The translations under genes and the position numbers were made by a program. From assembly GCA_947588815.1 (NCBI GenBank), contig CANQAG010000002.1, forward strand, positions 62,001-126,000: DNA of 64,000 bases. The letters run 5' to 3'. Below the pieces are notes generated by a model. That model saw only the letters and a program-made list of their open reading frames with translations, searched no databases and had not been told where the DNA came from. Positions 47,246 through 60,515 of this stretch are shown here, piece by piece; the first letter of the stretch is position 1, and the number at the start of each line of letters is the position of its first letter. The stretch comes from an uncultured Bacilli bacterium (GTDB lineage: Bacteria > Bacillota_I > Bacilli_A > RFN20 > CAG-449).

Positions 47246-47752
47246 AAGCATTTTCAAATTTTTAGAATTAAAAAGATTAACTTCCTTTTGGTAAAAGAAC
47301 AAAAGATAAGAACAAATGGGTGTTTCTAAACTGCATAATAAGAACTAAAGATTTTACTATTTTTTAAGGAGATAAGGTTTTTTGGACGGCCTCATCTCTT
47401 TTAATTTCTTTAACATTTAATAAATTTAAAATGTCTTTACTTTTGGTACAATTATTGGATTACTCATCATAAAGCAAGAAACCTCATAATGAGGCTTATC
47501 TTTTAAATATTTTCTCGGGGGGGGTAGAATTGAAGATTGGTAATTATCACAATAAAAAATAGCATTCTTTAAATTAAGATCTTTATAGGCGTGATTTGTG
47601 TAATTAAAAGGCCCTTTCTTTTTAATATTTTCTTTTTAATAGTTTTCTTGTAACTTTCTCTTTTAAAGAAGATTATCAATGACAAAAAAGCGCAAAATAA
47701 AATAATATTTATAAATTTAATATCTTCAAAATTTTCTTTTCATTTTCAATGA
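47246..47752. other. 507-base intergenic region with hairpins and a G8 tract
   Basis: No gene is supported on either strand. The contents seen are a plus-strand terminator-like hairpin (47369-47410), a small CCTCA/TGAGG hairpin (47482-47494), and a run of eight G (47517-47524), striking in this AT-rich genome. It may be a decayed region. Confidence 0.5.
47369..47410 (+). terminator. Terminator-like hairpin downstream of the VTC/DUF4956 operon
   Basis: GAGATAAGG (47369-47377) pairs with CCTCATCTC (47390-47398), one mismatch, followed by a T-rich TTTTAATTTCTTT. It lies 120 bases after the DUF4956 stop. Confidence 0.6.
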
Positions 47753-48892
47753 TCACTCTTCTTTACCAAATACAATATTTTCGAAAAATCTACAAATTTT
47801 TTTGACTGGTTTCATCCATGTATCAGCATATTTATTTACTAAAGACATAACCGGTCTTTCAATCAAATATTGCCGCAATAAATCGATAATTGTACATATT
47901 AAATACACACTAAATACAGCGAATATCGAATAAGGAATTAAAAGAAGCGAATTTGCAAAACTAGCGTTTTTGAATAAATCCATCCAAAGAAAACTTCTAA
48001 CAAAAGGATGATCATGGATCAAGTACACTCCAAATGTGGCCGATGCGATGACATTAATCCATTTGTGATATTTCATTTTCATAGTTGCAAACATCATAAA
48101 TAATGAAAGTGAAATAAGTAACGTGGATATTTTTTCTTGTCCGGCAAAATATCCTTCATGTCCAACAATAAATGACCATTTAGTACTCAAGAAAGTCAAA
48201 ACAACGGTGCTGAGATAGGTTAAAAATGAAAAAATTATCCATAAAATGGCATAACTTTTTGTAGTAAGTTTAGAATTAAAGCCATATATTCTCGCATAGC
48301 CGGCGATTATATACAATGTAACAAACCATATAAAATCATTGCTGGCATAGCTAGAATGTAAAAATGTTGGAATAACAGACCACATAATGACTAAAAGTAT
48401 AATTAAAGTTTGATATTTACGCTTATTAATAGAGAGCAATAATTTATTCAAAAACGGATGAATCAAATAGAGCACAAAATAAGCGCTAACAAACCACCAT
48501 TTTGAAAAAGTAATTGGAAAAATAGCGTATATAATCGAAACTAAACTCCCTACTCCATCATCAAAAACATTATATCCAAACAACCAAAAAATGACAAAAA
48601 TCACAATTGAATAGAATAGTACTTCTCCAATAAGTTTTATAATTTTTCTAACATTAAATAATGGTCCCTTATCGGCGATAAGGAAATAACCGGAAATTAA
48701 AATAAATACATCTACTCCTACTTTTCCTCCCATATAAATAAAATTGTACCAAAAGCGCGAAAGAGATATATCTGTCCAAACAAACTTACCATGTAATGCA
48801 AAGTGATGAAAAATAATCATAATCATCGAAATAATTCTTAACAATTCTATTGCAGAATTACGTGGTTGCTTTAATGCTTTATTATCTATCAT
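47753..48892 (-). CDS. Membrane acyltransferase family 3 protein
   Basis: A 379-residue polytopic protein of the OafA/YrhL acyltransferase family (about ten helices). Start RNSAIELLRIISMIMIIFHH holds the conserved first-helix His; GKVGVDVFILISGYFL carries the Gly-Val-Asp-Val-Phe pattern. Such enzymes acetylate or otherwise acylate surface polysaccharides or peptidoglycan. No partner gene is visible; the following region is non-coding. GAGGAAAAAT precedes the ATG. Confidence 0.9.
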   Translation of the reverse strand: MIDNKALKQPRNSAIELLRIISMIMIIFHHFALHGKFVWTDISLSRFWYNFIYMGGKVGVDVFILISGYFLIADKGPLFNVRKIIKLIGEVLFYSIVIFVIFWLFGYNVFDDGVGSLVSIIYAIFPITFSKWWFVSAYFVLYLIHPFLNKLLLSINKRKYQTLIILLVIMWSVIPTFLHSSYASNDFIWFVTLYIIAGYARIYGFNSKLTTKSYAILWIIFSFLTYLSTVVLTFLSTKWSFIVGHEGYFAGQEKISTLLISLSLFMMFATMKMKYHKWINVIASATFGVYLIHDHPFVRSFLWMDLFKNASFANSLLLIPYSIFAVFSVYLICTIIDLLRQYLIERPVMSLVNKYADTWMKPVKKICRFFENIVFGKEE

Positions 48893-49073
48893 TTTTCCTC
48901 CTCAAATATTTCTGTGATATTATAACATAATTTTAATGATAAAATAGCAAAATTAAAAATTAATAAAGTATTTAATTTGTTCCGTAAATTGAAAAAGTAA
49001 ATTCCAGTGAAATAAACAATAGACAATTATTAAGATAAAAATTCATAGATTTTTTAAGATAAATAAGGTATCA

Positions 49074-49079
49074 TATAAT
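49074..49079 (+). promoter_or_regulatory. Promoter -10 box of the CNNM leader
   Basis: TATAAT with a weak T-rich -35 17-18 bases upstream. It places the transcript start near 49086, giving a leader of roughly 150 bases. Confidence 0.5.
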
Positions 49080-49104
49080 ATAAATAAGGAGAAATCAGAT
49101 TTCA

Positions 49105-49212
49105 ATGGACGTTGACCCTAGTGACACTTGCAGTATTCAAATAGAAATCTATCATAGAGAATTAATCCGATTTTTATGTGAACTATCGAATGATAGTTTG
49201 CATCTTTTTTGA
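49105..49212 (+). CDS. Possible leader peptide (35 residues) upstream of the CNNM gene
   Basis: An ATG after AAGGAG (13 bases away, long) opens a 35-codon frame with an acidic, proline-containing start (MDVDPSDT) and end SLHLF, stopping at TGA 49210-49212, inside the T tract of an intrinsic terminator. Acidic/proline N-termini are known in Mg2+-sensing leader peptides such as MgtL, where they destabilise ribosomes at low Mg2+. That parallel is inference; the frame has no family match. Confidence 0.45.
   Translation: MDVDPSDTCSIQIEIYHRELIRFLCELSNDSLHLF
49149..49196 (+). promoter_or_regulatory. Alternative pairing that would block the leader terminator
   Basis: CTATCAT (49149-49155) is fully complementary to ATGATAG (49190-49196), which overlaps the 3' arm of the terminator hairpin. 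The two structures exclude each other, the arrangement of a transcription attenuator. Confidence 0.55.
49176..49210 (+). terminator. Leader terminator ahead of the CNNM gene
   Basis: Twelve-pair stem: ATGTGAACTATC (49176-49187) with GATAGTTTGCAT (49192-49203), including two G-U pairs, loop GAAT, then C and T6 (49205-49210). It lies between the promoter and the CNNM ATG and overlaps the end of the 35-codon frame. Confidence 0.75.
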
Positions 49213-49235
49213 TGTTTTAAGGAGAAATTATTAAC

Positions 49236-50495
49236 ATGCCTGACTATCTACAGATAATTATTATCGTGATATTATTACTCTTTTCCGCTTTTTTTAGCGG
49301 GGCTGAAACTTCCTATACTTCACTTAACAAAATAAAATTGCGAACCAGTGCCGAAAATGGTGATAAAAATGCCGAAAAGGTTTTAAAAGCCAGTGAAAAT
49401 TACGATCGCTTGATTTCTACCCTTTTAATCGGAAACAACATCGTAAATATTACTTCGGCCTCTATTGCAACCGTCCTTTTTGTCAATGTATACGGACAAA
49501 ACGGCACTTGGATTTCAACGATAGTGATGACTTTAATCGTTTTAGTGTTTTGTGAAGTTCTTCCTAAAGCGATAGCCAAAGAACGTCCTGAATATTTTGC
49601 CAAACTTTTTAATCCTTTCGTGGTATTTTTGACTTACGCTTTTTTACCTTTGAGTTTCATTTTGGAAAAAATTAAAAATGGCTTTTCTCATCTATTTAAA
49701 AAGAAAGCGACTGAAGAAACTTTTTCGGAAGAAGAATTGTTGACTATTTTCGATGAACTTGAAGAAGAAGGAAAAATTAAACCTTATGAAAATGAGTTGA
49801 TCTCTTCCGCTATAAAATTTGATGATATCGAAGTTAAGGAAATCCTCACTCCTCGTAATGAAGTAGTGGGAGTTCCAATCGACGCTTCATTTAAAGAAGT
49901 TTACGATATCTTTCAAGAATCGCGATATACACGAGTTCCCGTTTATCATGAAACTTTGGATAATATCGTCGGTCTTTTACACGAAAAAAACTTCTTTAAA
50001 TTTTTGGTTGAAAATGAAGATAATACTGAAAGTTTCGAAGTAAAAAAATTAATGACTGATGTTTTCTTTCTTTCCGAGGAAACTAAAATTTCCGTTGCTT
50101 TAAAAATTTTTCAAGAAAAGAAAACCCATATGGCCGTAGTTCTAGATCAGTTTGATGGTACCCTTGGCATTGTTACTTTAGAGGATATCATCGAAGAATT
50201 AATCGGTGAAATCTTCGATGAAACCGATGAAATTTTTGAAGAAGTCAAACAATTAGACGAAAACAATTATTTAGTGAGCGGTAAAGAAATGCTCTTTGAC
50301 GCCTTTGATACGATGGAAATCGAACCTGAAGAAGGGCTTGAAAATCAGACCATTAATTCTTGGTTAGGTCGTGAATTTGGACGAATCCCAACTTCCGGCG
50401 ATAACCTTATTTATCAAGATGATTGGAAAGTGATGGTTGTTTCCGCCAACAAAAAAGGTGCTATCCAAGTGCGTTTTACACATAGCAAAGATTAG
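49236..50495 (+). CDS. CNNM/CorC-family transporter-like protein (DUF21-CBS-CorC_HlyC)
   Basis: A 419-residue membrane protein of the family loosely called hemolysin/CorC; bacterial members move or regulate Mg2+ or Co2+. Domains: CNNM transmembrane DUF21 (about 1-165, LLFSAFFSGAETSYTSLNKI at the start), two CBS domains (about 195-320; EILTPRNEVVGVPID and MAVVLDQFDGTLGIVTLEDI), and a CorC_HlyC C-terminal domain (about 335-415; TINSWLGREFGRIP). Preceded by TAAGGAG. It is downstream of an attenuator-like leader and two bases before the rarA frame. Confidence 0.94.
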   Translation: MPDYLQIIIIVILLLFSAFFSGAETSYTSLNKIKLRTSAENGDKNAEKVLKASENYDRLISTLLIGNNIVNITSASIATVLFVNVYGQNGTWISTIVMTLIVLVFCEVLPKAIAKERPEYFAKLFNPFVVFLTYAFLPLSFILEKIKNGFSHLFKKKATEETFSEEELLTIFDELEEEGKIKPYENELISSAIKFDDIEVKEILTPRNEVVGVPIDASFKEVYDIFQESRYTRVPVYHETLDNIVGLLHEKNFFKFLVENEDNTESFEVKKLMTDVFFLSEETKISVALKIFQEKKTHMAVVLDQFDGTLGIVTLEDIIEELIGEIFDETDEIFEEVKQLDENNYLVSGKEMLFDAFDTMEIEPEEGLENQTINSWLGREFGRIPTSGDNLIYQDDWKVMVVSANKKGAIQVRFTHSKD

Positions 50496-57965: not shown

Positions 57966-60515
57966 CTATTTAAAGATAAAACTACCATTTACCCAATCGA
58001 TGGTAACCAGCGTTTTTTCTTTAATATTACCTTTTAAAATTTCACTTGCTAACGGAGTTTCGATTTCTTTTTGAATAAATCTTCGTAATGGTCTAGCACC
58101 ATATAGTCGATCGAATCCTTCTCTTGAAATCACTTCTAAGGCTTGAGGTGTCACTTTCAACGTGATACTCATCTTTTCTAGCCTCATTTGAAGTTCATCA
58201 ATAAATTTTTGGGCTATTTTCTGAATTAAAGTTTGCTCCAATGGTTTAAAGTAAATGATCTCATCGATTCGATTTAAAAATTCCGGTTTAAACCGTTGTT
58301 TGAGTTCTTCTTCAACACGCTTTAAATTATCTTCATTATATCCTTCTAATAAATATGAAGAACCGAGATTACTGGTCATGATTAAAATCGTATTTTTAAA
58401 ATCAACGATACGACCTTTAGAATCCGTCAAGCGACCATCATCCAATACTTGTAGCAAGACATTAAACACATCCGGATGGGCTTTTTCAATTTCATCAAGT
58501 AAGACGATTGAATATGGTTTACGTCGCACAGCCTCAGTTAGTTGTCCGCCTTCTTCATAACCCACATATCCAGGCGGCGCGCCTAAAAGTCGTGATACTG
58601 AAAATTTTTCCATGTATTCAGACATATCGATTCTTACAATTTGACTTTCAGAATCAAACAAATTAGTCGCTAAAGCCTTTGCTACTTCAGTTTTTCCAAC
58701 CCCGGTCGGGCCTAAGAATAAGAAACTACCGATCGGGCGATTTTCATCGTTTATTCCGGCGCGGGATCTTAAAATCGCATCGCTTACTTTTTGAATCGCT
58801 TCATCTTGACCGATCACTCTTTTTGCCAAATTGTCTTTAAGCGACAAAAGTTTATCTGTTTCGCTCTTCTTTAATTTATTAAGCGGAATTCCGGTCCACT
58901 TTGAGACCACCTTAGCCACATCTTCTTCTTTTACAACCTCATCTAACATTCGATCTTTTTTATCATTTGAAGCATCGGCAATCAATTTTTCCAATTCCGG
59001 AATGGTTTGATATTGTAGACGCGCTGCTTTTTCATAATCCGTGGCATTTAAGGCATGTTCTAATTCCAATTTAGCTTTTTCCAATTCCTGTTTAGCATTC
59101 TTGGAATGATAAAGTTCTTCCTTTTCTTTTTCCCATTTAGCCTTTAATTCGCTTTGACTTTGAGTTAAATCTGCAATTTCTTTATCCATCTTTTTTAAAC
59201 GAGTTTTGGCTACTTCGCTATCTTCTTTGCTAAGTGACACGCGTTCGATTTGCAATTGCATCAGTTTTCGATTAATCTCATCTAATTCCACCGGTAAAGA
59301 ATCAATCTGCATCCTTGTCGCAGCGCAAGCTTCATCGATTAAATCGATAGCCTTATCCGGCAAAAAGCGATCGGAAATATATCGTTTAGACAAAGTCGCC
59401 GCCGCAACTAAAGCCGAATCGAGAATTCTTACGCCATGATGAGATTCATATCGTTCTTTAAGGCCACGGAGAATGGAAATCGTATCTTCAAGCGTCGATT
59501 CATCGACCAACACTTTTTGCATTCTTCTTTCAAAAGCCGGATCTTTTTCTATATATTTACGATACTCATCTAAAGTAGTTGCTCCAATACAATGAAGCTC
59601 GCCACGAGCAAGCATCGGTTTTAATAAGTTAGCGGCATCCATCGCACCATCGGTCTTTCCCGCTCCAATAAGAGTGTGAATTTCATCGATAAACATGATG
59701 ATTTTACCTTCCGATTTTTTTATTTCATTTAAAGTTGCTTTTAATCTTTCTTCAAATTCTCCTCTGTATTTAGCTCCGGCAATAAGCGCACCTAAATCTA
59801 GTTCATAAATAGTTTTATCTTTTAAAGAAAACGGTACATCGCCTTTAAAAATTCGCCACGCCAAACCTTCGACTATTGCCGTTTTACCAACACCGGGTTC
59901 ACCAATTAAAATCGGATTGTTTTTGGTTTTACGCGACAAGATTTCAATCACACGACGAATTTCTTCATCACGACCGATAACCGGATCGATTTTTCCTCTT
60001 GCCACATCCATCGTCAAATCACGGCCATACTTTTCAAGCACTTCATAAGTTTGTTCAGGATTAGCATTTTCGACATGTTTATCACCCCGAATTTTTTTAA
60101 TAGCCTCTTCAAAAGTCCGTTTTTCAAAATTCGGAATGTTCATCAATTTACTTGCAAGAGAATGACGTGAATCAAAGATTGCTAAAATTAAGTGTTCGAC
60201 ACTTAAATACGAATCCTTATATTCGCTCATATAATGTCTTGCATTATTAAGTAAATTATTGAAATCAGTCGATAAATATTGCTGATCAAACGAAGACGAC
60301 TTCGCTCTTTCTTCAACATATTTATTAACTAATTGCGAAATTGCGCTAGTTTTAACGCCTACTTTAGAAGCGACATTTAAAAGCATTGATTCCGGATCAT
60401 CAATCATCGCTTTCAGTAAATGCGGAACATCGATCTCTTGACTTTGATGATCATGAGCGATCGTTCCCGCTTGATTAATTAAAGTTATCACTTTTTCAGT
60501 CATATTGTTTTCCAT
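57966..60515 (-). CDS. clpB: ATP-dependent chaperone ClpB
   Basis: A disaggregase working with the DnaK system. 849 residues: N-terminal Clp_N domain (about 5-145), AAA-1 with Walker [14 protein letters not shown] near residue 195 and [15 protein letters not shown], the coiled-coil middle domain (about 400-515), AAA-2 with [14 protein letters not shown] near 595, [20 protein letters not shown], and the C-terminal small domain. The start at ATG 60515 (MENNMTEKV) follows AAGGGGTG; the 11 upstream in-frame residues are not needed. Its promoter lies between two CIRCE elements, so it belongs to the HrcA regulon. Confidence 0.97.

Follow-up and report, generated by a model that had tools for sequence, protein, structure and literature searches.

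Organisation of the leader upstream of the CNNM gene

We analysed a window of 64,000 nucleotides from a draft genome of 1.3 Mb (contig C2), in which a gene of the CNNM/CorC family is preceded by a compact leader. The features of this leader and of the gene are as follows.

49074-49079, plus strand: -10 box TATAAT, read directly from the DNA and identical in three genomes
49086-49091, plus strand: Shine-Dalgarno sequence AAGGAG of the leader ORF, at the extreme 5' end of the expected transcript and 13 nt before the ATG
49097-49103, plus strand: AGATTTC, which may pair with GAAATCT at 49144-49150 as the 5' arm of an early helix
49105-49212, plus strand: leader ORF of 35 codons, MDVDPSDTCSIQIEIYHRELIRFLCELSNDSLHLF, with ATG at 49105 and stop codon TGA at 49210-49212; open in three genomes
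49149-49155, plus strand: CTATCAT, exact complement of ATGATAG (49190-49196) in the 3' arm of the terminator; invariant in three genomes
49156-49175, plus strand: variable spacer, ending in a T5 run (49171-49175) directly 5' of the terminator
49176-49210, plus strand: predicted intrinsic terminator, with stem 49176-49203, loop GAAU, a C, and T6 at 49205-49210
49219-49224, plus strand: Shine-Dalgarno sequence of the CNNM gene, 8 nt past the terminator T-run, which ends at 49210
49236-50495, plus strand: CNNM-CBS-CorC_HlyC gene, 419 aa (Pfam CNNM 4.4e-52, CBS 2.5e-18, CorC_HlyC 1.4e-8)

A first-pass annotation of this DNA had described the TATAAT box, a frame beginning MDVDPSDT, a 12-bp stem with a T6 run overlapping the stop codon of that frame, and an upstream CTATCAT able to pair with the stem, and all of these are present. 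The leader ORF spans the stem, the loop and the T-run, with its stop codon at the T-run itself, and the stem is a perfect 12 bp containing 3 G-C pairs (-12.1 kcal/mol). Transcription would be expected to start near 49085-49087, at about 49086. A promoter scan requiring at least 4/6 matches in each hexamer listed no site at the leader, because the -35 region is poor, with no acceptable hexamer at the expected distance from the TATAAT box. The 10-mer AAGGAGAAAT was found twice, at the Shine-Dalgarno sequence of the leader ORF and again at 49219 before the CNNM gene. The gap between the T-run and the CNNM Shine-Dalgarno sequence is only 8 nt, which leaves no room for a promoter; thus, RNA initiated at the leader promoter can reach the gene only through the terminator, and attenuation is likely.

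The assignment of the downstream gene to the CNNM/CorC family, made in the same annotation, was borne out by its Pfam domains and by a PDB search, in which the product matched archaeal CorB (7m1u) across residues 5-323. By analogy with characterised CNNM/CorC proteins, most of which point to Mg2+ export in the passages of PMC12421838 and PMC6711546 that treat them, the protein is probably an exporter of Mg2+ (divalent cations). In Salmonella, expression of corC and mgpA rises at high Mg2+ according to PMC12421838, which states that the mechanisms governing both genes are unclear.

We additionally noted differences in the surroundings of the gene. An acyltransferase-3 gene (47753-48892, minus strand) lies within a stretch of about 1.8 kb (47247-49022) that is missing from both congeneric genomes, in which the DUF4956 gene is found about 240 bp before the CNNM gene; the difference reflects either a recent insertion or a loss. 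Tandem pairs of CNNM genes (about 350 and 430 aa) occur in many genomes of the order, including G007:C47, G010:C26, G024:C1 and G029:C17, either beside the single copy or replacing it. The distance from the AAGGAG-type Shine-Dalgarno sequence to the CNNM start is long in several sister genera (about 11-17 nt; starts in L005, L007, L009 and L016), and the CNNM proteins encoded there often begin MDP.

Conservation and distribution of the leader

We searched the genome of origin, 279 genomes from the order, plasmids and viral contigs for relatives of the leader DNA, and identified three copies, all within the genus (the window genome, G002 and G003), the remaining matches being short and AT-rich. 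No relatives of the leader peptide or of its DNA were found outside the genus. The promoter box, Shine-Dalgarno sequence, ORF, terminator and CNNM ribosome binding site were retained in 3/3 genus genomes that carry the CNNM gene; the fourth member of the genus is represented by a 65% complete genome, and the CNNM gene is not in its assembly. Among six CNNM leaders of the sister genera g2 and g4, we found no hairpin right before the gene and no leader of the genus type, and these genes start soon after the promoter region; G004 has a hairpin farther upstream of its CNNM gene, at -116 to -88.

Across the three genomes, which are closely related (about 95% identical, or 5% apart, and about 97% identical in the leader, too alike to carry covariation), only 5 of the 150 positions of the transcribed leader (49086-49235) vary. 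The corresponding rates are 13-24% at third codon positions and 7-19% in three nearby intergenic stretches. Four of the five variable sites (49157, 49159, 49167 and 49169) fall in the spacer and the remaining one (49188) in the hairpin loop, leaving the stem unchanged; the probability of all five falling in spacer or loop is about 7e-5, calculated post hoc. The 5' half of the leader (49069-49156, 88 nt) is nucleotide-invariant, and equally long invariant runs are present elsewhere in the aligned 5.4 kb. Within the ORF, codons 1 to 17 contain no changes, whether synonymous or nonsynonymous, while three of the four changes in codons 18 to 23 are nonsynonymous (R-I, E-K and R-Q), indicating that the second half of the peptide is under no visible selection.

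Chance expectation of the leader elements

We compared the individual elements with shuffled sequences. An ORF as long as this one, starting early in the leader, arises in about 5% of shuffles, and in about 1% if a Shine-Dalgarno sequence is placed in front of it. For an exact 7-nt complement to the terminator arm the frequency among shuffles is 3.7%, rising to 56% once G-U pairs also count, and for the 7-bp helix between 49097-49103 and 49144-49150 it is 12% (p = 0.12). The fold stability of the whole leader is that of its shuffles (z = 0.21). Apart from the leader terminator, no strong hairpin with a T-run (stem of 8 or more) in the 64 kb lies within 120 nt before an ORF without ending the preceding gene; one other candidate before an ORF, a weak 8-bp stem at 58147, is followed by an ORF that lies opposite a longer one.

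Rfam covariance models gave no matches in the window at the gathering score, and no credible match in 48900-49300 at E of 10 or less, in agreement with the first-pass annotation, which had seen no M-box at the CNNM leader. A Pfam search with the 35-aa leader peptide also returned nothing.

Proposed control of the CNNM gene by the leader

The first-pass annotation considered the attenuation layout to be complete, and included in it an alternative hairpin between CTATCAT and the 3' arm of the terminator. The first part stands, since a promoter-like box, ORF, terminator, ribosome binding site and gene are kept in three genomes, but the alternative hairpin is not supported. We rejected CTATCAT as a thermodynamic switch: with this antiterminator forced, the leader folds at -10.8 kcal/mol, against -22.0 kcal/mol without the constraint. 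Masking the first 55 nt, to mimic a bound ribosome, gives -5.3 against -15.3 kcal/mol. The pairing is thus about 10 kcal/mol weaker than the terminator, and is near chance.

Because the ORF reads through the entire terminator and the antiterminator is not competitive, we tentatively favour a genus-specific transcription attenuator with translation-coupled read-through as the control of the CNNM exporter gene. The transcript would begin at about 49086, directly on the Shine-Dalgarno sequence of the leader ORF, and an initiating ribosome would cover AGATTTC at 49097-49103. Were the ORF left untranslated, or the ribosome to lag or drop off, the terminator would form and CNNM would not be transcribed. 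A ribosome close behind the polymerase would instead cover the 5' arm of the terminator, allowing transcription to run into CNNM, which would then be translated from its own ribosome binding site. This follows the logic of pyrL/pyrBI, in which an antiterminator hairpin is not needed, with block of the terminator by the trailing ribosome as the presumed step. The T5 run at 49171-49175 is suggestive of a polymerase pause element. In bacteria of the B. subtilis type the polymerase tends to outrun the ribosomes, according to PMC13323073, and a switch based on coupling would then be less effective, barring the aid of a pause. If translation-coupled read-through does operate here, the locus would exemplify ribosome-coupled control in bacteria whose polymerase is believed to run ahead of translation. 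The control of CNNM/CorC/MpfA exporter levels in bacteria is largely unexplained, and a leader with an in-frame terminator provides a concrete case from the Bacilli.

The leader could alternatively be an attenuator of the RNA- or protein-sensing kind (a small riboswitch or the site of an RNA-binding protein), in which the ORF is incidental and the 5' half and CTATCAT control the terminator. It would account for the nucleotide-level invariance of 49069-49156 alongside drift in the second half of the peptide, and for the exactness and invariance of CTATCAT beside a variable spacer; the helix between 49097-49103 and 49144-49150 could gate CTATCAT, and the same genome uses an M-box with a terminator before mgtE. 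However, the absence of an Rfam match, a fold no more stable than shuffles, and the weakness of the CTATCAT pairing relative to the terminator, at a near-chance level, make this reading plausible but rather unlikely.

To a similar degree, we consider it unlikely that the leader is the decayed remnant of a partly duplicated CNNM 5' end, with the promoter, ribosome binding site and first codons of an older start, and that the terminator between this start and the present one only lowers expression by a fixed amount. In sister genera, MDPS, MDDLP or a similar sequence opens the CNNM proteins, such starts being recurrent in the family, and AAGGAGAAAT precedes both the leader and the CNNM start. 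Leader VDPSDTCSIQI aligns with the CNNM start MDPSSLTIQI of a sister-genus genome (G006), with p = 0.028 at the protein level over nine N-termini and p = 0.0015 at the DNA level for the best of eight comparisons, but when the peptide test was based on local alignment the likeness fell short of significance (p = 0.084). Moreover, the leader is more conserved than neutral sites, and a duplicate origin, if true, does not mean that it is idle now.

Promoter box, Shine-Dalgarno sequence, ORF and terminator form a complete unit, which could also be a separate small gene or small RNA that ends at its own terminator and plays no part in controlling CNNM. This reading is improbable given that it would leave CNNM with no room for a promoter after the T-run, that the peptide and DNA have no relatives found outside the genus, and that the end of the peptide is not conserved.

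Magnesium and the acidic start of the leader peptide

Acidic residues one apart can have a destabilising effect on ribosomes when they lie close to the N-terminus. The likeness between the acidic start of the leader peptide and the CNNM N-termini of sister genera, judged by the alignments above, is weakly suggestive of a common source, and should the leader ORF indeed go back to a copy of the 5' end of CNNM, there is no need for its acidic start to act as a sensor.

If the signal acting on translation-coupled read-through were Mg2+, its likely sign would be ON at high Mg2+: at low Mg2+ the ribosome would be destabilised on the acidic start and the terminator would form. Hypothetically, such drop-off leading to termination would have the right sign for an exporter. 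A leader ORF that became a Mg2+ sensor from a copied CNNM start, with drop-off at M-D-V-D-P causing termination and sufficient Mg2+ allowing the exporter to be made, is accordingly conceivable, yet we regard it as very unlikely; if true, it would form the export-side counterpart of the mgtE M-box in the same genome.

Less probable still is the MgtL-type switch suggested in the first-pass annotation, in which the peptide stalls or drops ribosomes at low Mg2+ and turns CNNM on via the antiterminator: MDVDP resembles the MEPDP of MgtL, with acidic residues at the spacing given above and with ribosome drop-off at EPDP in low Mg2+ described for MgtL (PMC11282234), but the antiterminator is too weak, the MgtL terminator is Rho-dependent (PMC11282234), the second half of the leader peptide is unconserved, its acidic start bears a weakly supported likeness to sister-genus CNNM N-termini, and with family members mostly linked to export (PMC12421838, PMC6711546) and Salmonella corC/mgpA induced at high Mg2+ (PMC12421838), ON at low Mg2+ would be the wrong sign.

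Comparison with known attenuators and riboswitches

Classical trp/his attenuators have a run of codons for one amino acid and a terminator past the ORF, and the CNNM leader has neither. In amino-acid attenuators, more than 20 bp separate the end of the leader gene from the terminator (PMC4824070), unlike the arrangement here, where the terminator is inside the ORF, and the leader lacks the competing antiterminator of comparable stability that distinguishes stalling of the trp/his type.

An M-box (RF00380) with a terminator lies directly before mgtE in the same genome (L063 1501-1699; G000:C15:25148-25298). We found an M-box in only three of the 41 genomes searched, all of this genus, though many relatives carry mgtE. 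Like the CNNM leader, it places a terminator just before the ribosome binding site of a Mg2+ transport gene and is limited to the genus; it differs in being an aptamer RNA of about 150 nt that needs no leader ORF, and it is absent before CNNM.

MgtL-mgtA of the Enterobacteria shares with the CNNM leader a short ORF with an M-acidic-x-D-P start, lying before a Mg2+ transport gene. MgtL has 17 codons and the CNNM leader 35. The start of the latter fits the MgtL pattern M-[DE]-x-D-P (MDVDPSDT versus MEPDP), and may have been inherited from the CNNM N-terminus. MgtL acts through Rho and precedes an importer induced at low Mg2+, whereas the CNNM leader has a predicted intrinsic terminator and precedes a probable exporter, of a family that passages of PMC12421838 and PMC6711546 link mostly to export.

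YoaL-mgpA and the CorC N-terminus, also of the Enterobacteria, likewise tie a leader or early coding sequence to the expression of a cation protein with a CorC domain; in those systems expression is higher at high Mg2+ (PMC12421838). Work cited there places the YoaL leader peptide before the CorC-domain gene mgpA (yoaE), and assigns an intrinsic ribosome destabilization sequence to the N-terminus of E. coli CorC. YoaL overlaps the region upstream of mgpA and reportedly affects mgpA translation, no terminator being mentioned in those passages, and the bacteria are unrelated. The view in the first-pass annotation that a peptide-based Mg2+ switch in this group would be new is softened by these precedents, known via passages of PMC12421838.

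The terminator of E. coli pyrBI sits within a leader gene of 135 bp, and a ribosome that trails the polymerase blocks it (PMC4824070, PMC5021804). Attenuators of the pyrBI type have UTP-dependent pausing, and read-through in them rises when the leader is translated. As in the CNNM leader, pyrL-pyrBI has an intrinsic terminator inside a short leader ORF, an antiterminator hairpin is unnecessary, and the space between terminator and gene holds no further promoter. The hairpin of pyrBI follows a U-run, and here the T5 run stands in that position. The CNNM leader ORF is shorter (35 codons against about 44 in pyrL), its stem is AT-rich (only 3 G-C pairs), its host belongs to the Bacilli, and its target is CNNM rather than pyrimidine synthesis. 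To judge from its sequence, the locus looks like a conserved, genus-specific leader of the attenuator type, in which Mg2+ has a purely hypothetical role, and a new representative of an already known type of on/off switch controlled by ribosomes.
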